Shown here piece by piece: positions 10,476-57,084 of a stretch of DNA of 64,000 bases. The stretch covers positions 29,431-93,430 of the forward strand of contig SVFT01000011.1 of the NCBI GenBank assembly GCA_015056735.1, read 5' to 3'. This DNA comes from Lachnospiraceae bacterium. GTDB lineage: Bacteria > Bacillota > Clostridia > Lachnospirales > Lachnospiraceae. Below the pieces are notes generated by a model. That model had not been told where the DNA came from. It ran no database searches and saw nothing but the letters and a program-made list of their open reading frames with translations. Numbering within the stretch: the first letter of the stretch is position 1; every line of letters starts with the position of its first letter. The translations under genes and the position numbers were made by a program.

Positions 10476-10513
10476 AAATAAAAAAGCAGCTCTCTGCGTC
10501 ACCAGAGAGCTGC
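10476..10513 (-). terminator. Rho-independent terminator after the NHLM-type operon
   Basis: Perfect 11-bp stem GCAGCTCTCTG-CGTCAC-CAGAGAGCTGC followed on the minus strand by TTTTTTATTTACTTTTTT. Confidence 0.88.
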
Positions 10514-10538
10514 CGTTTCCTCCATTACGATCACACGC

Positions 10539-10733
10539 CTAATACTTCGGTGCTCCGGGACGATTTTTTTGATACACAATATTCCCCGCCGCTGCAAGCT
10601 CAAGCTCGTCATCGGAAAGCGGCATCTGTCCTACGCCGTTTTCGAGACCATTCAGCATAGCTTTTAAGCGTTCCTTATGGTCACTTCCTTTTGAAAAGTC
10701 TGCCTTTTTTAAGATCATTTCTACATCTTTCAT
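10539..10733 (-). CDS. Candidate exported peptide precursor (64 aa, double-Gly-type leader)
   Basis: MKDVEMILKKADFSKGSDHKERLKAMLNGLENGVGQMPLSDDELELAAAG|NIVYQKNRPGAPKY; LSDDELELAAAG resembles Nif11/NHLP-type leader ends; last gene of an operon with C39-peptidase ABC transporter; terminator directly downstream. Confidence 0.7.
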   Translation of the reverse strand: MKDVEMILKKADFSKGSDHKERLKAMLNGLENGVGQMPLSDDELELAAAGNIVYQKNRPGAPKY

Positions 10734-10911
10734 AGATTTCTTTAGCCTCTTCCGTTTTCTTTGCCTGTTCTATCTGTTCTTTGAGTTCCCCGTCAGTTCC
10801 ATCAATCGATTCCCCGGTATATTGAAACAGGAAGTGCTTATCTTTTCATAAGAATATACGGGATATCGATTCAAAATACCACACACTTTAAGGAACGAGA
10901 CGAAAGAAATG

Positions 10912-11460
10912 TCAGATCTTCTCCGAGCCAGCGATCCTGCGGCACTTCTCCAGGATCCTGTTGATCCTCGCTCCGACTGCTTTCTCTTTTGCGTTCACTT
11001 GCTCAGCAATCTCTTTATACGACAGTTCAAAGCCGAACCGCAACGAAAGCAGTTCACGCTCCTCCGGCTTTAAATGCTTTAAGATCACGTAAGCTTCCGA
11101 AGCCTGCTCATCGATCAGTTTTGTCAGTTCCGAATCCTCGGCGCCCGGCTCCATGCCCTGCTCCACGCAGTCATCAATAGACACCGCCTGTCTGCTGATC
11201 TGCCCGCCGATCGTTCCGTTCTTACGGAAATGATCGTAGAGTGTATTCGTTGCGATCCTGTTCAGCCACGTTGAAACGGACGCAAGCTTCGGGTCGAACC
11301 GGTCATAGGCACGAAATGCCTTGATGAAAATGTCCTGGACGATATCTTCTGTACTCTCCCGGTTCAGAATGCGCATATACACGGCATTGTAAATACTGCC
11401 ATAGTGTTCGTCATATACTTTTTCGAAGGGCTCTATCACCACTGTTCCAACTCTTCCCAT
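10912..11460 (-). CDS. ECF-type RNA polymerase sigma factor (sigma-70 family)
   Basis: YDEHYGSIYNAVYMRILNRESTEDIVQDIFIKAFRAYDRFDP...LRFGFELSYKEIAEQVNAKEKAVGARINRIL (regions 2 and 4). Confidence 0.92.
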   Translation of the reverse strand: MGRVGTVVIEPFEKVYDEHYGSIYNAVYMRILNRESTEDIVQDIFIKAFRAYDRFDPKLASVSTWLNRIATNTLYDHFRKNGTIGGQISRQAVSIDDCVEQGMEPGAEDSELTKLIDEQASEAYVILKHLKPEERELLSLRFGFELSYKEIAEQVNAKEKAVGARINRILEKCRRIAGSEKI

Positions 11461-11468
11461 CGCCTTTC

Positions 11469-13673
11469 CTATGCCCCCTGCTCCTTTGTATCATATTCCA
11501 CCTGTTGCCGTCTTACAAGGTCTGCAAAGGCTCCGTTCTTTGCGATCAGCTCTTCATAAGTGCCATCCTCTACGATCTTGCCCTCATCAAGAACAACGAT
11601 GCGATCACAGTTTTTGATCGTCGAAAGTCTGTGCGCGATCACAACTCTCGTACAATTCAGCCTATCGAGCGAATCGGATACCTGCTTCTGTGTGATATTA
11701 TCCAGCGCACTTGTTGCCTCGTCAAACATCAGGATCTTCGGTTTGGGTGCGATGGCCCTGGCGATCATGAGCCTCTGCTTCTGGCCGCCCGAAATACCGC
11801 CGCCGCCTTCCATGATCATGGTAAACATGTTCATCGGCATCTGCCTGATATCCTCTGCGATCCCCGCCATCTCCGCCGCTTCCCACGCATCGTCAAGCGT
11901 AAGCTCCGGCGCAGAGATCACGATATTGGAATAGATATCGCCCATAAAAAGCGATCCGTTCTGCATCACCGTACCGATCTTGCTGCGAAGTGATTTCAGA
12001 TCGATCGTATTCAGATCACGCCCGTCATAATAGACGGCACCTTTCTGCGGCCTCTCAAATCCGAGCAGGATACGCATCAATGTGCTCTTGCCGCAGCCCG
12101 TCCTGCCGGTAATGGCAATATACTGACCGGGACGGATCTTCAGGCTTAAGTTATCGAGAACGGGCGGCATATCTTCATTGTAACGAAATGTGATATTGCT
12201 CAATTCGATCCCGCCGGAAAGCTTTTCCACTACAGGCTTATCTTCCGAAACTTCAGGAACTGCTTCCATGATCGGACGCACCAGATTGAGGATCGGTCCG
12301 ATCTGCGATGCAGGCTCTAAAAACGGGATCAATGCGGTAAATGCCGCATTCACTGAAGCAAATGCCGCATTAAACGCATAATACTGCGAAATATCAACAC
12401 CGGATGTGATCGCCAACCCGTACAGGATCATCGTTCCGACAAGTGATATGCCGGTGATGATCGCCGGTGACACCTTTACAAAAAGGGGCGGATCATACAG
12501 GTAGGCTGCCTGCGCGGCATAAGCGTTTGCCCATTTTGCAAAGGCTCTTCTCTCCGCTCCTGCAAGTTTGATCTTCTGAATGCCCGAGATCAGCGCATAG
12601 GAAAGGCCGCTCTCTTTGGACGCCAGTTCCATCTGACGTCTGAGGATCCGGGCACGCATGATGACCGTCAGAACCGTCACGCCGAATTGCAGAAAAGCCA
12701 CCAGAAATGCCGGAAGGGCAAGCGCAGGCGCAAAGGCCGTGATCTGCGCAATATAGATAAAGGATAAAAGGACGGTTGCAAAGCCGGAAAAGCCCATGTC
12801 GATCAGAAGCGTCACCAGGAGGTTCATGTTCTGTACACGACTTGCAAGCCCGCCCGATGAATAGTCCTTGAAGAAACTGCTCGGCAAAGTCAGAACACGC
12901 ATCATGGTCGCAGACTCAACACTAAGATTCAGCTTCAGTGAGATCCGCTGCAGGAACAGTTCCTGCACCGTTCCGAACAAAAGGCTCGAAAGCGATGCAC
13001 ATATCATAAAAACAGCGATCGCAAGAAGCACATTCATATGTCCGATCGACACAACATCCGAAAAAAGGATCATATTGATCCACGGGATCAAAAGCCCGAC
13101 CAGAGTTGCCAGGATCGCAAATCCCAGGTATCCTGTAAGACTCTGCTTGTCGATATTCTGCAAAATATAGCGGCAAACATCCCGCATCGTAAGTGATCTT
13201 GTCGGAAACGGCTTATAGAAAGCATAGGCCTCCGACGAAAAAAGCTTCTCCGAAGATGGCGTGACACGCATCATCTCGCCCGTATTCGGATCAAGATACT
13301 TATAGCCAAACGCATTGGCCGGGATCAGCGCAACAGGCAGTCCATCTGCTTTAAAAGTTGTCAGCATCGGACCAGAAGCGTCCTTTCGGAAGCCTTCCTG
13401 CAAGTTGACTTCTCTGGTCATTATGCCGTATGGGCGAAGCAAAAACTCCAGCACTTCATCAATCGTTCCAAGCTGCTCCGGTACTTCCCTTACCTTCACA
13501 TGATAGAATCGCAGAATCTCCCCGATCGCATCAGTCGCCTGTTCACGCTCATTATGCAGTGCTGCAGTCAGCCTTTTCCCCATAACAGCGCCAGCGATCC
13601 GAAGACACGAATCCTCGAACATTTCTATATCGCTTTTTTTACGCAGCTCCAGCTGCTCTTCAAACCAACCCAC
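11469..13673 (-). CDS. NHLM-type bacteriocin/peptide system ABC transporter, permease/ATP-binding protein
   Basis: N-terminal NHLM-type domain, 6 TM region, Walker A GRTGCGKSTL, signature ISGGQKQRLMIARAI; partner of C39-ABC. Confidence 0.88.
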   Translation of the reverse strand: MGWFEEQLELRKKSDIEMFEDSCLRIAGAVMGKRLTAALHNEREQATDAIGEILRFYHVKVREVPEQLGTIDEVLEFLLRPYGIMTREVNLQEGFRKDASGPMLTTFKADGLPVALIPANAFGYKYLDPNTGEMMRVTPSSEKLFSSEAYAFYKPFPTRSLTMRDVCRYILQNIDKQSLTGYLGFAILATLVGLLIPWINMILFSDVVSIGHMNVLLAIAVFMICASLSSLLFGTVQELFLQRISLKLNLSVESATMMRVLTLPSSFFKDYSSGGLASRVQNMNLLVTLLIDMGFSGFATVLLSFIYIAQITAFAPALALPAFLVAFLQFGVTVLTVIMRARILRRQMELASKESGLSYALISGIQKIKLAGAERRAFAKWANAYAAQAAYLYDPPLFVKVSPAIITGISLVGTMILYGLAITSGVDISQYYAFNAAFASVNAAFTALIPFLEPASQIGPILNLVRPIMEAVPEVSEDKPVVEKLSGGIELSNITFRYNEDMPPVLDNLSLKIRPGQYIAITGRTGCGKSTLMRILLGFERPQKGAVYYDGRDLNTIDLKSLRSKIGTVMQNGSLFMGDIYSNIVISAPELTLDDAWEAAEMAGIAEDIRQMPMNMFTMIMEGGGGISGGQKQRLMIARAIAPKPKILMFDEATSALDNITQKQVSDSLDRLNCTRVVIAHRLSTIKNCDRIVVLDEGKIVEDGTYEELIAKNGAFADLVRRQQVEYDTKEQGA

Positions 13674-13685
13674 GAAAAGCTCCTT

Positions 13686-15884
13686 CTATTCGTTCATGAC
13701 AAGCTGTGCATACATGCCGTCACGCGCCATCAGTTCCTGATGCGTTCCCCGTTCTACAACCTTACCGTTATCCAGCACAATGATCTCATCGCAATCCCGA
13801 ATGGTGGAAAGTCTGTGCGCAACCACCACGCAGGTAATGCCTCTGTCACGGATCGAGCGCACAACGTCATACTCCGTCTTTGCATCCAGTGCACTGGTCG
13901 CCTCATCCATGATAATGATCGTCGGGTCCTGTGCAAGGACTCTCGCGATCTCCAGTCGTTGCCGCTGACCGCCGGACAGATCCCGTCCTCCGTCCTGCAG
14001 TTTATACTGATAGCCACCGCTGCGCTGCATGATATCTTCATGAAGCTGTGCATCTCTGGCAGCAAGGATCACCTCAAAATCTTCGATGGAATTGTCCCAC
14101 ATCCTGATGTTATTGGCGATCGTATCTTCAAACAGAATGATATCCTGGTCTACAACCGAAAGTGACCCCGTAAAGACACTTCGGTCGATCTCATCAACGC
14201 TCTTTCCGTCAAACAGAACTTCACCAGACCAGGGCCTGTATAAGCCGGAGATCAGTCTGCCCAGCGTGGATTTGCCGCATCCGGAACTGCCGACGAAAGC
14301 TACGCTTTTCCCGGGCGATAACGTCAGGGAAAAATCTTCGATAAGCGGAGGCTCCAGCCTGGAATAACCGAATGTCACATGTTGAAGTGTCAAAGCTCCG
14401 GATAGCTTTCCTGCGGCCTGCTCCTTTTCACCGCTTTTCGAATCGTTTCCGGCAAAAAGAGGATCCTCATCATATTCCATCACATCATCGATCCGCTCCA
14501 TCTGAGCGCGCATCTCCTGCAGGCTCTGCCCAGCCGTAATAAAGGACTGTGCCGGCAGAAAGAACTGCATCATGAATCCCTGAAAAGCCAGTACCATGCC
14601 GGAAGTGATCTCTCTGCGAATGATCAGATATACCCCCATCAACAAAACGATGTCATTTGCGATCGCCAATACAATGGCAGGGATCCTGCCAAGGCTCGCA
14701 TTCAGTCTTGCAAGGCGGCAGTCCTGCGTATTAACGCTCGCCTGATAACCGGACCATTTCCTGAAGAATCCGTTTTCCGCACCACTCGATTTGATCGTCT
14801 CGATCATCTCAATACCGGAGATCGTGGTCCCATACAGTTTGGAGTCATCGCGCAGCATTACTCTTGTTATGTTAACTCGCTTCGCACTGATATAATAAGA
14901 GACAACCAGATTGATCAAAACGGAAGAAATACCGATCAACGTCATGATCACAGAATAGCGCAGCATGACACCCAGATAAAATATGAGCATCGCCGTATTG
15001 ATGACAAGCGGTGCAAACGTATTGATCAGAAGGTTTGCGATATTCGCATTGGCCAGGCGTCTCTGCTCCAGGTCGCCTGCCATTCTTTGCGAGAAGAACT
15101 TCATCGGAAGATGAAGAACATGCCAAAAATAGGTTGCATTTCCGACTGCTGCAAACTTGCCGCTGATCCGAAGCGAATAAACTGACGTGATCCAGGCTGC
15201 CAGGATCCGGACAAGCGTCAGGATCGACAAGGCGATCAAAAAAGGTCCTACAAGTTTTTCGTTGCGGCCCCCTAGCAGATGGTCCATAAAAAAGCGTGAA
15301 AAACCGGCTGCAATGATCGCCGCGGCGGACGTGACAGCCGTGGTCACCGCGACAAAAACAGCGGCAGCCCCCGCCCCCTCCATGCGGCGCTTTGCAAAAG
15401 CGATCATACTCTTCGGATGACCGGAAGGCTGAAAACCCTCACCCGGTGCAAAGAGGATCGTAACACCTGTAAAGCCCTCATCGAACTCCGCATCCGTCAG
15501 AACAATATCACCTCTTGCCGGGTCATTTATATATACTTTGCCTTTTTTAAAGCCTTTGCATACAACAAAATGATTAAACTCCCAGTGTACGATGCACGGG
15601 AAGGTACCTCTTTCCCGAAGGCTTTCAGGCTCAAAGCGGAAGCCGCGCGCCTCAAATCCGTGCATTCTCGCAGCCTTTGCGATATTACTTGCCTTCGATC
15701 CGTCACGCGACACCGCGCAGTCCTCGCGCACCTGCTCCAGCGGGATCCATTTATTAAAATAAGCCATGACCATCGTCAGGCTCGCTGCACCGCATTCCAA
15801 TGCTTCCATCTGCATGACAACAGGAACCTTTGCAACGCCTGACTTAATCGGTTGTTTGATCGTCTTCTCTCTGACTGTTCTCAA
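13686..15884 (-). CDS. NHLM-type ABC transporter with N-terminal C39 peptidase (PCAT)
   Basis: C39 catalytic Cys in VVMQMEALECGAASLTMVMAYF, His/Asp in NHFVVCKGFKKGKVYINDPARG; ABC module GSSGCGKSTLGRLISG, LSGGQRQRLEIARVL. Confidence 0.93.
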   Translation of the reverse strand: MRTVREKTIKQPIKSGVAKVPVVMQMEALECGAASLTMVMAYFNKWIPLEQVREDCAVSRDGSKASNIAKAARMHGFEARGFRFEPESLRERGTFPCIVHWEFNHFVVCKGFKKGKVYINDPARGDIVLTDAEFDEGFTGVTILFAPGEGFQPSGHPKSMIAFAKRRMEGAGAAAVFVAVTTAVTSAAAIIAAGFSRFFMDHLLGGRNEKLVGPFLIALSILTLVRILAAWITSVYSLRISGKFAAVGNATYFWHVLHLPMKFFSQRMAGDLEQRRLANANIANLLINTFAPLVINTAMLIFYLGVMLRYSVIMTLIGISSVLINLVVSYYISAKRVNITRVMLRDDSKLYGTTISGIEMIETIKSSGAENGFFRKWSGYQASVNTQDCRLARLNASLGRIPAIVLAIANDIVLLMGVYLIIRREITSGMVLAFQGFMMQFFLPAQSFITAGQSLQEMRAQMERIDDVMEYDEDPLFAGNDSKSGEKEQAAGKLSGALTLQHVTFGYSRLEPPLIEDFSLTLSPGKSVAFVGSSGCGKSTLGRLISGLYRPWSGEVLFDGKSVDEIDRSVFTGSLSVVDQDIILFEDTIANNIRMWDNSIEDFEVILAARDAQLHEDIMQRSGGYQYKLQDGGRDLSGGQRQRLEIARVLAQDPTIIIMDEATSALDAKTEYDVVRSIRDRGITCVVVAHRLSTIRDCDEIIVLDNGKVVERGTHQELMARDGMYAQLVMNE

Positions 15885-15915: not shown

Positions 15916-16197
15916 TCACTGAATAATATAAGTAATGGGGGCGACCGTCTGTGTGCCGGTTTCGGTCTGTACTTCTATTCTTCCCAAAACGCCCCAGACC
16001 AATGCGCCCACGATCAGAATGATCGTTGCAAAAAGGATCAGCCACACCGATGGCGTGGTAACCCTGATATAATCATCAAGCTGCTCGGGAGACGATACCC
16101 GCTCGATGCTCTTTTCCCGGAAGATCAGTTTTCTCTCCATATAATCCCTCCGCCCGTAAGGCTGAAATCTCTCAGTTGTATTCCAAAACAGGATCAA
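15916..16197 (-). CDS. Short HlyD-like NHLM system secretion protein (membrane-anchor only; likely start at Met 16140)
   Basis: MERKLIFREKSIERVSSPEQLDDYIRVTTPSVWLILFATIILIVGALVWGVLGRIEVQTETGTQTVAPITYIIQ*: N-terminal NHLM HlyD signature and one TM, then stops. Confidence 0.78.
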   Translation of the reverse strand: MILFWNTTERFQPYGRRDYMERKLIFREKSIERVSSPEQLDDYIRVTTPSVWLILFATIILIVGALVWGVLGRIEVQTETGTQTVAPITYIIQ

Positions 16198-16451
16198 TAT
16201 GATCCCTAGGCTCTATTTTACATGAAAGTTTACGATTTGTTTATATTTGTTTTCTATTTATTTCGTTTTTGTTTTCCTTTCTTTTTAGGAAATGGACACA
16301 CTAAAGACATATTTGTTTTTTATACTCATATTATCAAAAGAGAGAACAACATCTCCTTTTGATAAGTTCTTCATAGATACTCCCCCTCATAGTATTGAAC
16401 AGGAAAAAAGGAAGACTCCCATCTTCCTTTTTTGCTGTCCATTTTTATTGT

Positions 16452-50918: not shown

Positions 50919-51094
50919 CCTTCGGAAAGTCCATAAAAAATCAACATATATTATAGTGCATTCTCGAATAGGAAGAAAGTGATTTTTGCTCTTTTTGAAA
51001 AATTGGTTGCCTGCTGATGATCCCGTGTGATATGCTTTTGTTGTTTAAAGCATGAACGCTTTAATGAAGAAAATCGTATGAAAAGAGGGGAACT

Positions 51095-52627
51095 ATGAAA
51101 CTGATTCTACTGATCCTTTATTTTGCTGTTTTGATCGGAATCGGCATCTACTGCCGCAAGCATGCGACCGACGTAAACGGCTTCGTCCTCGGCGGACGCA
51201 GTGTAGGCCCCTGGCTGACTGCTTTTGCCTACGGCACATCCTACTTTTCCGCTGTTGTATTTGTCGGCTACGCCGGCCAGTTCGGCTGGAAATACGGTAT
51301 CGCCGCCACATGGGCAGGTCTTGGCAACGCCGCGATCGGGTCACTCCTTGCCTGGCGCATTTTAGGGCGGCGCACCCGTATCATGACGCAGCATCTTGAT
51401 TCCGCTACTATGCCGCAGTTCTTTGCAAAGCGGTTTGGAAGCAAGCCGCTGCAGATCGGTGCATCCGCGATCATCTTCGTTTTTATGATCCCATACACCG
51501 CATCGCTCTATAACGGTCTTTCGAGACTTTTCGGTATGGCTTTTGACATCGATTATACCGTGTGTATCATCCTGATGGCGGTTCTGACAGCGGTCTATGT
51601 CATCAGCGGCGGCTATATGGCAACCGCGATCAATGACTTTATCCAGGGCATCATCATGCTCTTCGGCATCGCGACCATCATCGTGGCCGTTCTGAAAACG
51701 CAGGGCGGATTTATGCAGGCGCTCGATTCACTGGCACGCGTATCAGACCCTGCCGTATCCGATGCACCCGGCATCTTCAATTCCTTTTTCGGACCCGATC
51801 CCATCAACCTCGGCTTTGTTGTCATTCTGACATCGCTCGGTACCTGGGGACTTCCGCAGATGGTTCAGAAATTCTATGCGATCAAAGACGAGCAATCCAT
51901 CAAACTCGGAACAGTGATCTCCACGTTCTTTGCGCTCGTAATCGCAGGCGGCAGCTATTTCCTCGGCGGATTCGGCAGACTTTTTTCCGATCGCGTGGAT
52001 GTAGCGACGGAAGGATATGATGCGATCATACCCGCGATGCTCTCCGGTCTCTCACCGCTCCTCATCGCACTTGTCGTGATCCTCGTTCTGTCCGCGTCGA
52101 TGTCTACACTGTCCTCGCTGGTCATCGCATCTTCTTCTACGCTGACGATCGACTTCATCAAAGACAATGTCATCAAGGACATGAAGGATAAATCGCAGGT
52201 TCTGTGTATGCGTCTTCTGATCGTCGTATTCATCGCGATCTCTTCGATCCTCGCGCTGATACAGTATAAGAGCAGTATCACATTCATCGCGCAGCTCATG
52301 GGGATCTCCTGGGGTGCAATGGCAGGCGCGTTCCTGGCACCGTTCATGTATGCACTTTACAGCAGGCGCGTATCCAAAGCATCCTGCTGGGTATGCTTTA
52401 TCGGCAGCACGATCCTGATGATCGCCAACATGGTCTGCAAGGATGCTTTTCCGGACTGGCTGAAATCGCCCATCAACGCAGGTGCGATCGCCATGATCGC
52501 GGGTATCGTGATCGTTCCGATCATCAGCCTTTTCACAAAAGCGCCTGATAAGAAGCTCGTAGACGATGCATTCGACTGCTACAATAAGCGTGCAAGTGTA
52601 CGCCAGCTGACTGCATTGGATGAATAA
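51095..52627 (+). CDS. Sodium:solute symporter (SSS) family transporter
   Basis: ~13 TM; GFVLGGRSVGPWLTAFAYGTSYFSAVVFVGYAG...; VLSASMSTLSSLVIASSS. Confidence 0.92.
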   Translation: MKLILLILYFAVLIGIGIYCRKHATDVNGFVLGGRSVGPWLTAFAYGTSYFSAVVFVGYAGQFGWKYGIAATWAGLGNAAIGSLLAWRILGRRTRIMTQHLDSATMPQFFAKRFGSKPLQIGASAIIFVFMIPYTASLYNGLSRLFGMAFDIDYTVCIILMAVLTAVYVISGGYMATAINDFIQGIIMLFGIATIIVAVLKTQGGFMQALDSLARVSDPAVSDAPGIFNSFFGPDPINLGFVVILTSLGTWGLPQMVQKFYAIKDEQSIKLGTVISTFFALVIAGGSYFLGGFGRLFSDRVDVATEGYDAIIPAMLSGLSPLLIALVVILVLSASMSTLSSLVIASSSTLTIDFIKDNVIKDMKDKSQVLCMRLLIVVFIAISSILALIQYKSSITFIAQLMGISWGAMAGAFLAPFMYALYSRRVSKASCWVCFIGSTILMIANMVCKDAFPDWLKSPINAGAIAMIAGIVIVPIISLFTKAPDKKLVDDAFDCYNKRASVRQLTALDE

Positions 52628-52629
52628 AA

Positions 52630-52705
52630 ATGAGCCAGGGGGACGGGGTGTGTGGTTCATTTTGCTTTCGCAAAATGAACCACACACCCCGTCCCCCTGG
52701 CTCAT
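52630..52705. repeat. REP/BIME-like perfect palindrome (36-bp arms, TTTC loop)
   Basis: ATGAGCCAGGGGGACGGGGTGTGTGGTTCATTTTGC-TTTC-GCAAAATGAACCACACACCCCGTCCCCCTGGCTCAT; between convergent genes, can also serve as terminator. Confidence 0.92.
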
Positions 52706-52712
52706 ATCGTAT

Positions 52713-53000
52713 TTACTTCTCGTCCAATACTCTCTGGATCACCTTAGAGATACAGCCCGTGCCATACTTGAGCATCCGCTTCACGCGGCTGATCGTCGCC
52801 GTACTGGCATTCGTTTTCTCCAGAATATCCACATACACTTTATTCTGCATCAGCAGAGTGGCAACAGCGTAACGCTGCTCCAGCGCCGAGAGTTCTGTGA
52901 CCGTACACATGTCTTCAAAAAACTTCTCGCATTCGTCAAGATCTTTCAGTTTCAGGACCGCCTTGTAGAGGTCCTTACGATATCCGCTTTTGTCTTCCAT
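52713..53000 (-). CDS. YerC/YecD family TrpR-related protein
   Basis: LDECEKFFEDMCTVTELSALEQRYAVATLL...TNASTATISRVKRMLKYGTG. Confidence 0.93.
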   Translation of the reverse strand: MEDKSGYRKDLYKAVLKLKDLDECEKFFEDMCTVTELSALEQRYAVATLLMQNKVYVDILEKTNASTATISRVKRMLKYGTGCISKVIQRVLDEK

Positions 53001-53083
53001 GCTTTACCCCTTTAAACAATGAATGTCTTTTGGTTCATTGTACGATATTTTGAAAACAGAAACAAGACTTGTGCGAAATTTGA

Positions 53084-54739
53084 TCAGCCCTTATTCTCCT
53101 GAGCGACGAGCCGGTCGGCGCCGAACATCTTGCGAAGCTTAGGCTTCTCGATCTTACCGGTTGCATTACGTGGGATCTCCTGAAAGATGATCTCTTTCGG
53201 ACGCTTGTAGCGCGGCAGTTCCAGGCAAAAGTCTTCGAGTTCTTCCACCGTACACTGCATACCCTCTTTGATCTCCACGATGGCTGCCGTCTTCTCGCCA
53301 AGGCGTCTGTCAGGCAGACCGATCACGGCGCAGTCTTTGATCTTGTCATAACGACGAAGGAAATCTTCGATCTGTACGGGATAGATGTTCTCACCACCGC
53401 TGACGATCACGTCTTTCTTGCGGTCTACAAGGAAGATAAAACCATCCTTGTCTTCCATCGCCATATCACCCGTATAGAGCCAGCCGTCTTTCAAAACCTC
53501 TGCTGTCGCCTTCGGATCGTTATAGTAACATTCCATCACGCCGGGACCCTTCACACAAAGTTCACCGACATCGCCGCGCGTAACCGTCTGTCCGTTCTCA
53601 TCGACAATCTTGCACTCCCAGCGATAACCGGGCACGCCGATCGCGCCGACTTTATGGATATTCTCCATTCCAAGATGCACGCAGCCGGGTCCTGTCGATT
53701 CGGAAAGACCGTAGTTTGTATCATAGTCATGATTCGGGAAGTATTCTTTCCAGCGCTTGATCAGTGAAGGCGGAACAGGCTGCGCGCCGATATGCATAAG
53801 TCTCCAGCGCTCCAGATGGTAATCGGAGAGCTTAATGTCTCCCCTGTCGAGCGCATCCAGGATGTCCTGTGCCCACGGCACAAGAAGCCACACGATCGTA
53901 CAGCGCTCGTCCGATGCTGCCTTCAGGATCGTCTCAGGCCTCGTACCCTTTAAGAGCACAGCCTTTGAGCCGGCAACCAGACTTCCCATCCAGTGGAACT
54001 TCGCACCTGTATGGTAAAGGGGCGGAATACACAGGAACGTATCTTTACGCCCCGTCGCATGATGCTTCTGCTCCATTTCGGCAGCCTGCATAAGGCTTCT
54101 GTGCTTATGAAGGATCGCCTTGGGAAAACCGGTGGTGCCGGACGAAAAATAGATCGCCGCCAGATCATCGTCCGTAAGCACGATATCCGGCCGTATACTG
54201 GAGCAGTCGGAAACAAGCTCCATGTAACTCTCGGCAAAAGCCGGACAGTTATCGCCGACATAGATCATTAATCTGCCCTTTGCGACCTTATCCGCGATCA
54301 CCTCCATACGGCTCACAAACTGCGATCCGAATATGATTGCATCAACCTCTGCAAGTTCCACGCAATACAGGATCTCATCCGAATCATAACGGAAATTAAA
54401 CGGAACGGCGATAGCACCTGTTTTTAAGATGCCGAAATAGATCGGCAGCCATTCCAGACAGTTGTACATCAGGATCGCGACTTTTTCGCCCTTCTTGATC
54501 CCTCTGCCGAGCAGCATATTCGCTACTCTGTTTGCTTTTTCCTCAAATACGCCCCAGGTGATCTCTCGTCTGAAAGGTGTAAATGATATCGGCTGGATCA
54601 GATCGGACTCTTTCCAGGAAGCCCGTCTTGTATCTTTCTCATCCGGATTCAGGCTGACCAAAGCGACTTCATCGCGGTATAACTCTGCATTTCTTTCCAA
54701 AAACTCCGTTACCGGCACTTCTCTTATCCTCACTTTCAT
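53084..54739 (-). CDS. AMP-dependent acyl-CoA synthetase/ligase
   Basis: AAIYFSSGTTGFPKAILHKHRS...YNDPKATAEVLKDGWLYTGDMAMEDKDGFIFLVDRKKDVIVSGGENIYP. Confidence 0.95.
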   Translation of the reverse strand: MKVRIREVPVTEFLERNAELYRDEVALVSLNPDEKDTRRASWKESDLIQPISFTPFRREITWGVFEEKANRVANMLLGRGIKKGEKVAILMYNCLEWLPIYFGILKTGAIAVPFNFRYDSDEILYCVELAEVDAIIFGSQFVSRMEVIADKVAKGRLMIYVGDNCPAFAESYMELVSDCSSIRPDIVLTDDDLAAIYFSSGTTGFPKAILHKHRSLMQAAEMEQKHHATGRKDTFLCIPPLYHTGAKFHWMGSLVAGSKAVLLKGTRPETILKAASDERCTIVWLLVPWAQDILDALDRGDIKLSDYHLERWRLMHIGAQPVPPSLIKRWKEYFPNHDYDTNYGLSESTGPGCVHLGMENIHKVGAIGVPGYRWECKIVDENGQTVTRGDVGELCVKGPGVMECYYNDPKATAEVLKDGWLYTGDMAMEDKDGFIFLVDRKKDVIVSGGENIYPVQIEDFLRRYDKIKDCAVIGLPDRRLGEKTAAIVEIKEGMQCTVEELEDFCLELPRYKRPKEIIFQEIPRNATGKIEKPKLRKMFGADRLVAQENKG

Positions 54740-54852
54740 ACACAGGCTTTTGTGCTTTTATGCTTTAACCCTTTATTCTACAAAAGTAGCATAAAGGCAT
54801 CCGTTCCGTCAAGAACGAATGCCTGTTCAGATTGTCTATGGAAAGTCAAAAA

Positions 54853-57084
54853 CTACTCATTTTCGAAAGATGCACCGTCTACCGCTGCACCCGTATTGGG
54901 GTCGATCAGCACGCCCGTTCCGGGCTCCACAAGATAGCCGGTCTCAGGATCGACCGCATATCCTTTGATCTTATCGATCAGAGAAAGTTCCATCTCCTTC
55001 AGCTTCTTTTCTTCTTCGGAAAGCTCCTGACCACCTTCACCCGGCTTAATGACCTCTACACTTTCCTTATCATCACCGTTTCCGGCGCCATCCTGCCGCT
55101 TCTCTTTGGAGGAGCCGTCTTCTCCTTCGGTCTGCGCCGCTTCCTCCACCTTATGCAGGATACTGTCATAGATGCCTGTTTCTTCCAGTTCGCTTTCTTC
55201 CTTTTCGGAAAGCTCTTCCGTCATAAAGTAATTCATATACGGCAGCACTTCCGTCAGGATATTGCGCACGATCCCCGTTGCAAACTTTGCATCATCCTGG
55301 AGCGGTGCATTCGGCCTGTCAACGATTACATAGATCGCGATCTCCGGCCGTTCAGCAGGTGCATACCCCATAAACGAAACGAGGTAATTACGCTTGTTAC
55401 GCGGAACCATTTCAGCCGTTCCCGTCTTGCCTCCGATCGCATAGCCCGCGGGACGCGCCGTCTTACCGGTACCTTCTGTTACAACACCGTTACAATAATC
55501 AATGATCTTATCGGATGTACTCGGCGAGATCGTCTGCTTTAAGATGCGCGGCTCGATATTGCGCACGGTGACGCCATCCGGGCTCACGATCTTGCTGACG
55601 ATATGCGGCTCATAGTAGTTGCCGCCGTTTATCAGCGAACAGAAACCGCAGATCATCTGGATCATGGTCGCGTTAAAGCCCTGGCCGAATGTCGACGTTG
55701 CAAGCTCCGCTTCACCCATCGTCTGTGCATTGTAAACAAGTGAATCGTTCCTTGTCTCGCCGGCCAGGTCTATATTGGTCTTCAGTCCGAAATTAAATGC
55801 ATTCTGAAACTGCAGAAAGATATTTTTGCCGATCGCATCACCCATCTGCATCAGTGCCACGTTGCAGGACTTCTCAACGGCCTGCTTTACAGTCAGAAGC
55901 CCGTCACCAAGCCTGTTGTGGCAGTGGATCTCATGCCCGCCGTACCACAAAGAACCGTTGCAAAAATAGGTCTCATTTCCGGTAAGGCGCCCGCTCTCAA
56001 GACCTGCTGCGACTGTAAAGGGCTTCGCAACGGAACCGGGCTCGTAGCTGCTGCTGATGCAGAAGTTCTTCCAAAGCGCATTGAGATTTGCATAGAGCGT
56101 CTCATCATCGATCGTCTTCAGTGTTTCTTCCGTGATGATCTCTTCGGTAGGCTTGCCGTCTTTATCCAAAAGGATGCTACCGATCAGCGGATGCGGGTTC
56201 TTTGTATCGTTGAGATCGTAATTCGGATAGTTTGCCATTGCCAGGATCTCACCGGTATTCACACGCATCATGATGCACGCGGTGTTGACCGCGCCGTTTC
56301 CGTCCCTGGCAGCATTTTTATGTTCTTCGTTGAATTTTTTTAAGTATTTTTCAACAATGCTCTGGATATTGGCATCGATCGTGGAAACGATCGTATTGCC
56401 GTCGATGGCGGCTTTCGTGGTACGTTCCAATGTCGAATCGTCGTTTAAGTACCCGTACTGCCTGCCGTTGATGCCGTTTAACGTATCGTTATAGAACTCT
56501 TCCATCCCATACGTGCCGATGTTGTCTTTGCCGGTAAAGCCGATCGCATCGGAGGCCAGATTGCCGTTCGGATACGTCCTTCTGTACTCTTCTTCAAACC
56601 AGATGCCCTTCAACAGTTCGCCCTGCTCGGGGTCATTTTGAAGCTCGACAAAAGGGCTGATCTCATCGTAGGTCAGCTGCTTTTTCAGTACATTATACTG
56701 GGATGTGGGATTCTCTTTCAGAAATGCACGAATCGGTGCCTCATCAAGCCTGAAACAGCTGTGGAGTGCCTTCATCGTCGGATCAAGGTACTCAGCCTTA
56801 GCCGTCAGCTGCTTGGCATCAAGCACGATATTATAGACCTTCTCACTGACTGCAAGTTTGGTTCCCTTACAATCAATAATATCCCCTCGTTTGAAGGGGA
56901 TCGTAATGCTGTCGTATTGCTGCTGTGATAAAACCTGTTTTTTATACTGTTCGCCGTTATCCCTGTTGATCAGTGCAAGTCGCACGGACAGACCCGCAAA
57001 TGCCAGAAGCACTAAAAAGAAGAGAACTGCGAGCTTCTTCTGCATCTTTTTGGTAAACAGATTCTGGGGTTCCTGATTCTTCAA
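54853..57084 (-). CDS. Penicillin-binding protein 2 / FtsI (class B PBP)
   Basis: SSYEPGSVAKPFTVAAGLE (SxxK), KSCNVALMQMGD (SxN), AIGGKTGTAEM (KTG); in dcw cluster. Confidence 0.95.
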   Translation of the reverse strand: MKNQEPQNLFTKKMQKKLAVLFFLVLLAFAGLSVRLALINRDNGEQYKKQVLSQQQYDSITIPFKRGDIIDCKGTKLAVSEKVYNIVLDAKQLTAKAEYLDPTMKALHSCFRLDEAPIRAFLKENPTSQYNVLKKQLTYDEISPFVELQNDPEQGELLKGIWFEEEYRRTYPNGNLASDAIGFTGKDNIGTYGMEEFYNDTLNGINGRQYGYLNDDSTLERTTKAAIDGNTIVSTIDANIQSIVEKYLKKFNEEHKNAARDGNGAVNTACIMMRVNTGEILAMANYPNYDLNDTKNPHPLIGSILLDKDGKPTEEIITEETLKTIDDETLYANLNALWKNFCISSSYEPGSVAKPFTVAAGLESGRLTGNETYFCNGSLWYGGHEIHCHNRLGDGLLTVKQAVEKSCNVALMQMGDAIGKNIFLQFQNAFNFGLKTNIDLAGETRNDSLVYNAQTMGEAELATSTFGQGFNATMIQMICGFCSLINGGNYYEPHIVSKIVSPDGVTVRNIEPRILKQTISPSTSDKIIDYCNGVVTEGTGKTARPAGYAIGGKTGTAEMVPRNKRNYLVSFMGYAPAERPEIAIYVIVDRPNAPLQDDAKFATGIVRNILTEVLPYMNYFMTEELSEKEESELEETGIYDSILHKVEEAAQTEGEDGSSKEKRQDGAGNGDDKESVEVIKPGEGGQELSEEEKKLKEMELSLIDKIKGYAVDPETGYLVEPGTGVLIDPNTGAAVDGASFENE

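Follow-up and report, generated by a model that had tools for sequence, protein, structure and literature searches.

What does a peptide without cysteine, serine or threonine do beside an exporter that carries a C39 peptidase? The question is raised by a small gene in a Lachnospiraceae bacterium, located in a stretch of 64,000 nucleotides that was analysed as a whole and is called the window here. The initial annotation described an open reading frame at 10539-10733 whose last 14 residues contain none of these three amino acids, and both the frame and their absence were confirmed. The joint reading proposed here, which is given about an even chance of being correct in all its parts, is that of a linear, unmodified peptide that is cut by the C39 exporter, driven by an ECF sigma factor and serves the system itself, an autoinducing signal being the best guess for its role. 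The computation supports the reality of the gene, its division into leader and tail, the promoter that it has in common with other peptide genes, and its occurrence together with exporter and sigma factor. The gene and its parts are the following.

10539 to 10733, minus strand: precursor gene (family A), 64 amino acids, consisting of a conserved leader of 50 residues and a variable tail of 14 residues
10584 to 10733, minus strand: leader, ending in LSDDELELAAAG (C39-type recognition motif), assigned by purifying selection, C39 register and the rules for LahT (PMC6363468)
10542 to 10583, minus strand: predicted released tail NIVYQKNRPGAPKY, hypervariable
10485 to 10514, minus strand: intrinsic terminator of the precursor gene with 12 pairs, after the stop codon (read from 10514 to 10485)

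The translation consists of MKDVEMILKKADFSKGSDHKERLKAMLNGLENGVGQMPLSDDELELAAAG followed by NIVYQKNRPGAPKY, the junction being the predicted border between leader and tail. An orthologue, 71% identical to the window precursor, is found in the sister genome, the MAG RUI431 (L005). Aligning homologues had been suggested initially as a way of seeing which part is conserved; the leader is kept, with 41 of 50 residues identical to the sister, and the tail is hypervariable, with 4 of 14. For the leader, the comparison with the sister yields an NG86 dN of 0.094 and a dS of 1.94 (dN/dS of about 0.05); strong purifying selection acts on the open reading frame, and the gene is real. Homologues occur in at least six genera, the relatives outside the genus of the window being represented by the genomes G252, G261, G199, G241 and G382. 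These relatives share a leader of the form M..(V/I)E.I(F/L)...ADFSKGS.HKE.L...L, ending in LSDDELE..AA(A)G, and their tails, about 14-16 amino acids long, are mutually unrelated. A leader that is kept together with a tail that is free to vary is the pattern expected for a released peptide.

The site of release can be predicted from the leader. In C39 register, its end in the window reads L-12, S-11, E-8, L-7, A-4, A-2 and G-1. Positions -12, -7 and -4 are therefore Leu, Leu and Ala, while Val, Leu or Ile is usual at -4 and described C39 sites have GG, GA or GS at -2/-1 (PMC6363468, PMC10885120). The window and the sister carry AG at -2/-1, and the other homologues carry AA, then G or Q; these homologues are one residue longer, which shifts AA to -2/-1, and in most of them Gly then occupies +1. 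Their AA-G end is similar to the C39 site of mersacidin, which needs a Gly after the cut (PMC10885120). Owing to the AG at -2/-1, the Ala at -4 and the register of the homologues, which is shifted by one residue, the exact cut position is a prediction. The precursor has no NCBIfam match up to E 0.1, including the leader models NHLP (TIGR03793) and Nif11 (TIGR03798), and its one Pfam match is unrelated and below the cut-off.

The precursor gene lies 3' of a C39-ABC/ABC/ECF-sigma operon on the same strand, which encodes an NHLM-type exporter with the following components.

15916 to 16140, minus strand: HlyD stub of 74 amino acids (TIGR03794), comprising the N-terminal segment and one transmembrane helix only
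13686 to 15884, minus strand: exporter ABC subunit with N-terminal C39 peptidase (NHLM_micro_ABC1, TIGR03796)
11469 to 13673, minus strand: second exporter ABC subunit without peptidase domain (NHLM_micro_ABC2-like, TIGR03797)
10912 to 11460, minus strand: ECF sigma factor, 182 amino acids (TIGR02937, Sigma70_r2 and r4)

The first ABC subunit scores 893 bits against TIGR03796, above the cut-off of 853.3, and the second matches TIGR03797 over the full length with 704.5 bits, the curated cut-off being 709.4. The HlyD stub covers positions 1-45 of the 421 positions of TIGR03794 and, with 40.7 versus 156.2 bits, does not qualify as a HlyD-like fusion protein; its 74 residues are counted from a Met conserved in the sister, the longest open reading frame starting at 16197. 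The same length is found in the sister L005 and in L071/G052, and short HlyD versions of about 70-220 amino acids are usual in related Lachnospiraceae NHLM loci. About 140 residues of the C39 domain give a gapless alignment with LahT147 (PDB 6mpz; E 6.5e-64), in which Gln25, Cys31, His105 and Asp121 stand opposite the catalytic Gln21, Cys27, His101 and Asp117 of LahT (PMC6363468). The leader motif and the intact active site suggest that the exporter cuts and releases peptides. Its C39 domain would cut after LSDDELELAAAG and thereby release the linear, unmodified NIVYQKNRPGAPKY outside the cell.

Such a product had at first been considered unusual for this transporter class, a view that does not hold. 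Unmodified peptides are well known as routine cargo of C39 exporters (PMC7595303, PMC7018657), LahT, which has the closest solved C39 domain, cleaves unmodified cores (PMC10885120), and the genome of the window contains about 20 more GG-leader peptides, mostly with short Cys-poor tails. In the neighbouring proteins, Cys, Ser and Thr together make up 12.3% of the residues, so that 16% of random 14-mers would lack all three. Given this chance and the routine export of unmodified peptides, the composition of the tail is not anomalous. Taken together, seven tails of the family (105 amino acids) contain 3 Ser, no Cys and no Thr, where 12.9 would be expected, with P = 0.0006 under an assumption of residue independence that does not hold. 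No modification enzyme was seen among the genes around the window precursor, which favours the linear, pheromone-like product that the initial annotation had offered as one of two options. The product is thus most likely a linear, unmodified 14-mer, cut after AG.

The other option, a modification centred on residues such as Tyr, fares less well for the window: a radical-SAM/SPASM gene accompanies the family in two relatives, but no orthologue lies near the window gene. This alternative describes a RiPP in which a radical-SAM/SPASM enzyme acts in trans and cross-links Tyr, Lys or Asn, as present in YQK of the window tail and FEN of the sister tail. Such an enzyme is encoded 77 bp downstream of the homologue in G252, a 74% identical enzyme is located beside the exporter in G261, and the tails of both homologues are Tyr-rich. 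The position of the gene in G252 makes modification elsewhere in the family possible. For the window, however, cross-linking is unlikely: its genome has only a 29% identical radical-SAM enzyme, on another contig and beside its own Nif11-type precursor, and the 64-kb window contains no relative of the G252 enzyme. Moreover, the precursor-bearing genomes G199, G241 and G382 are without a radical-SAM orthologue, and the tails of G199 and G241 have no aromatic residue. The G252 enzyme was accordingly rejected as a general partner of the family as far as the window is concerned. Elsewhere in the genome of the window, a Nif11-type precursor with a Cys-rich core lies beside a radical-SAM protein (L137 8845-10629; G000:C21 14,845-16,613) and probably represents a separate RiPP locus.

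The expression of the precursor gene leads from the single peptide to a larger set. A scan for a sigma-70-type promoter at the gene gave nothing convincing, and comparison of 5' regions pointed to another element.

10853 to 10882, minus strand: ECF-type promoter GTGGTATT-N14-CGTATATT, with the -35 element at 10882-10875 and the -10 element at 10860-10855

The same block also stands ahead of a cluster of GG-leader peptides on another contig of the genome (L136). The pattern GTNGYRTT-N14-CGTATA has 9 sites in the whole genome of the window, compared with 0 for the reversed pattern, 3 sites in the sister, and 2 in total in eight congeners without the sigma factor; over all ten genomes, the reversed-pattern control gave 8 matches. 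Seven of the nine sites precede leader-peptide genes, and two of these seven (C6, C9) played no part in motif discovery. The eighth is located ahead of a surface-like protein, with a similar site recurring in the sister, and the ninth ahead of an unrelated membrane protein. With a weight matrix built without the window gene, the window promoter is the top match in 64 kb (21.4, the next being 13.4). A matrix from the genus of the window also ranks the promoters of the homologues first in the loci of G252 and G261.

In G252, which belongs to a second genus and whose sigma factor is 49% identical to that of the window, GTNGCAT-N15-YGTATATA occurs at 21 sites versus 0 in the control, every match reading GTCGCAT...TGTATATA. 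Nineteen of the 21 are found 40-90 bp ahead of a leader-peptide gene, one of which is the homologue of the window gene, and in G261 both promoter sites (2/2) precede leader-peptide genes. The putative promoters of G252 provide independent confirmation. A promoter with conserved spacing is hence shared and, apart from the two sites in the eight congeners, confined to sigma-bearing genomes. As it is common to the precursor and the dispersed GG peptides, the precursor belongs to an ECF-sigma regulon whose members are exported peptides. Together with the co-occurrence described below, this promoter suggests that the window sigma factor, whose gene closes the exporter operon, reads GTNGYRTT-N14-CGTATA and would in this way transcribe the precursor together with about 20 dispersed GG-leader cargo peptides. 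The shared promoter is evidence of co-regulation and says nothing on secretion.

Within the genus, the sigma factor is limited to the genome of the window and the sister. Homologues above the threshold were found in these two genomes and in G252, G261, G382 and G241, and the precursor is present in all six; in G199, a partial sigma gene lies beside the precursor at a contig end. The precursor is single-copy, is present in every genome with the sigma factor, and in six of the seven precursor genomes has sigma or exporter genes as neighbours, G382 having about 130 kb between precursor and sigma. Among 397 genomes of the taxonomic family, 6/6 with the precursor also have the exporter, the base rate being 39/397 (Fisher P = 6e-7, with thresholds of E up to 1e-5 for the precursor and up to 1e-200 for the exporter, and with genomes treated as independent). 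A second group of small proteins, family B (LFDYQRFEGN.RL..LI ... AAG; L028, L069, L074, L091, L093, L150), is encoded by genes that either overlap other ECF sigma genes of NHLM loci or lie directly beside them. It has the same AA-G end, and the exporter is present in 8 of the 9 genomes that contain this family (P = 4e-8, genomes again treated as independent). At L150 9484-11391, minus strand (G041), an NHLM-linked sigma factor has as its neighbour a fusion of a STAS domain with an AMP-binding acyl-CoA-synthetase-like enzyme.

The cargo differs from one genus to the next. The GG-leader peptide family has 21 matches in the genome of the window and 5 in the sister; eight other congeners have none, and the peptides are absent where exporter and sigma factor are both missing. 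About 15 GG-leader peptides, with short and diverse tails, are clustered at L136 6961-12160 (G000:C22 about 51,000-56,200) in the window's own genome, and six promoter-like sites stand ahead of the peptides in this cluster. Tails in the genome of the window are mostly short and Cys-poor, whereas those in G252 are zinc-ribbon-like and Cys-rich. At L146, L147 and L224-L245, G252 has about 17 GG-leader peptides under GTCGCAT-N15-TGTATATA, with tails of 40-70 amino acids, nearly all of which are zinc-ribbon-like (CPxCG...CxxCG). This set is apparently a large group of exported mini zinc-ribbon peptides.

A trace of a GG peptide is also found at the precursor gene itself.

10729 to 10791, minus strand: remnant GELKEQIEQAKKTEEAKEIYE of a GG-peptide leader, out of frame, overlapping the 5' untranslated region and the start of the precursor gene (match to G000:C15:40159-40221, E 3.6e-4)

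In G199 and G241, an intact GG peptide occupies this place between sigma and precursor. Ancestrally, the sigma gene was likely followed by a GG peptide and then by the precursor, and the line of the window would have lost the GG peptide.

Because the precursor is constant, single-copy and mostly located beside sigma or exporter genes, while the cargo is genus-specific, it most likely serves the export and sigma system itself. An autoinducing peptide signal is the best guess for the 14-mer and is held with moderate confidence. No peptide receptor was found in the window, and genes of relatives would offer a possible extracellular-sensing route to the sigma factor. In G252, the sigma gene lies between precursor and exporter together with genes for a radical-SAM protein, a STAS protein, an RsbW-like kinase and a SpoIIE-type phosphatase, in which about 160 residues separate two predicted membrane helices. 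G382 has SpoIIE, STAS and RsbW-like genes at its exporter, and in G199 the precursor is followed by a STAS gene; none of the three types was seen within the 64-kb window. A tentative circuit can be drawn from this arrangement, in which the secreted linear peptide would be sensed by the membrane SpoIIE-type phosphatase, the STAS protein and the RsbW-like kinase would then free the ECF sigma factor, and the latter would express the signal precursor and the genus-specific exported mini-peptides. All genes of this proposed circuit are side by side in G252.

Instead of acting outside the cell, the small protein could bind the sigma factor inside it until the C39 exporter removes it; sigma activity would then report exporter availability. 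There is one precursor copy per sigma factor, usually adjoining it, genes of the AA-G-ending family B overlap or directly adjoin further ECF sigma genes of NHLM loci, and no anti-sigma gene was seen in the window. This role is nevertheless doubtful, as the RsbW-like kinase, STAS and SpoIIE genes beside the sigma gene of relatives constitute a complete alternative control, the window precursor has its own sigma-type promoter and no translational coupling, and the two genes are far apart in G382. The logic is that of FlgM, an exported anti-sigma factor. In both cases, export of a small sigma partner would couple secretion to transcription, but there is no homology, the secretion machine is a different one, and sigma binding by the window precursor is hypothetical.

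An effector function, for instance as a narrow-spectrum bacteriocin, would make the precursor just another cargo peptide, in agreement with the promoter that it has in common with about 20 of them. It is improbable in view of a leader outside the cargo family, a single gene copy, the presence of the precursor across genera with unrelated cargo, and the lack of a recognisable immunity gene beside it. A chance open reading frame or decaying gene, for which the suboptimal ribosome-binding site with its poor Shine-Dalgarno spacing and the GG-leader remnant over the gene start could be cited, is very hard to reconcile with the low dN/dS of the leader, the conserved promoter and terminator, and the range of genera with homologues.

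The autoinducing, exported peptide favoured here can be compared with known systems. The locus resembles the NHLM/NHLP-Nif11 export system (TIGR03794/03796/03797; Haft et al. 2010, PMC2887384) in its exporter pair with C39 peptidase and in genome-scattered leader peptides with hypervariable cores after the cleavage motif. It differs in the HlyD stub, which is not a local accident, in a precursor that is neither NHLP nor Nif11 by model, in the absence of a modification enzyme from the locus, and in its connection with the regulon of an ECF sigma factor. In Lachnospiraceae C6A11, the lah cluster (PMC6363468) likewise combines several leader peptides and diverse cores with one transporter, and contains the closest solved C39 domain. 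However, it makes lanthipeptides from Nif11-type leaders ending in GG, whereas AG closes the motif in the window, where no lanthionine enzyme was seen. As predicted for the window peptide, the double-glycine pheromones and GG peptides of streptococci (ComAB, BlpAB, RtgAB; PMC7595303, PMC7018657) are short, unmodified, cut and exported by a C39 ABC transporter, and variable in the mature part. Their regulators are two-component or Rgg systems, in contrast to the ECF sigma factor of the window with the SpoIIE/STAS/RsbW-type partners of its relatives.

Two features are unfamiliar, an ECF-sigma regulon that comprises NHLM cargo and a conserved precursor linked with this regulon, neither of which was found described in the literature searched, with most subscription journals outside it. 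The same literature yielded no circuit of peptide quorum sensing via an ECF sigma factor in Lachnospiraceae; should the 14-mer act as the inducer, gut-type members of the family would provide such a case. One odd peptide has thus become a testable regulon. Its promoter signature names NHLM-exported peptides anywhere in the genome, without recourse to the Cys-rich cores and neighbouring modification enzymes on which RiPP mining usually relies.

Upstream of the exporter operon, an open reading frame of 29 amino acids (16260-16360, minus strand; DNA 98-99% identical to the sister) was considered as a second peptide and rejected. It is more likely a noncoding element, since the stretch follows tpiA without an intact open reading frame in congeners that lack the exporter. 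The noncoding-looking element after tpiA extends over 16230-16440 on the minus strand (..TACTATGAGGGGGAGTATYTATGAAGAAC..) and matches no Rfam family at the gathering threshold; it is 98-99% identical to the sister and partly kept in seven further congeners.
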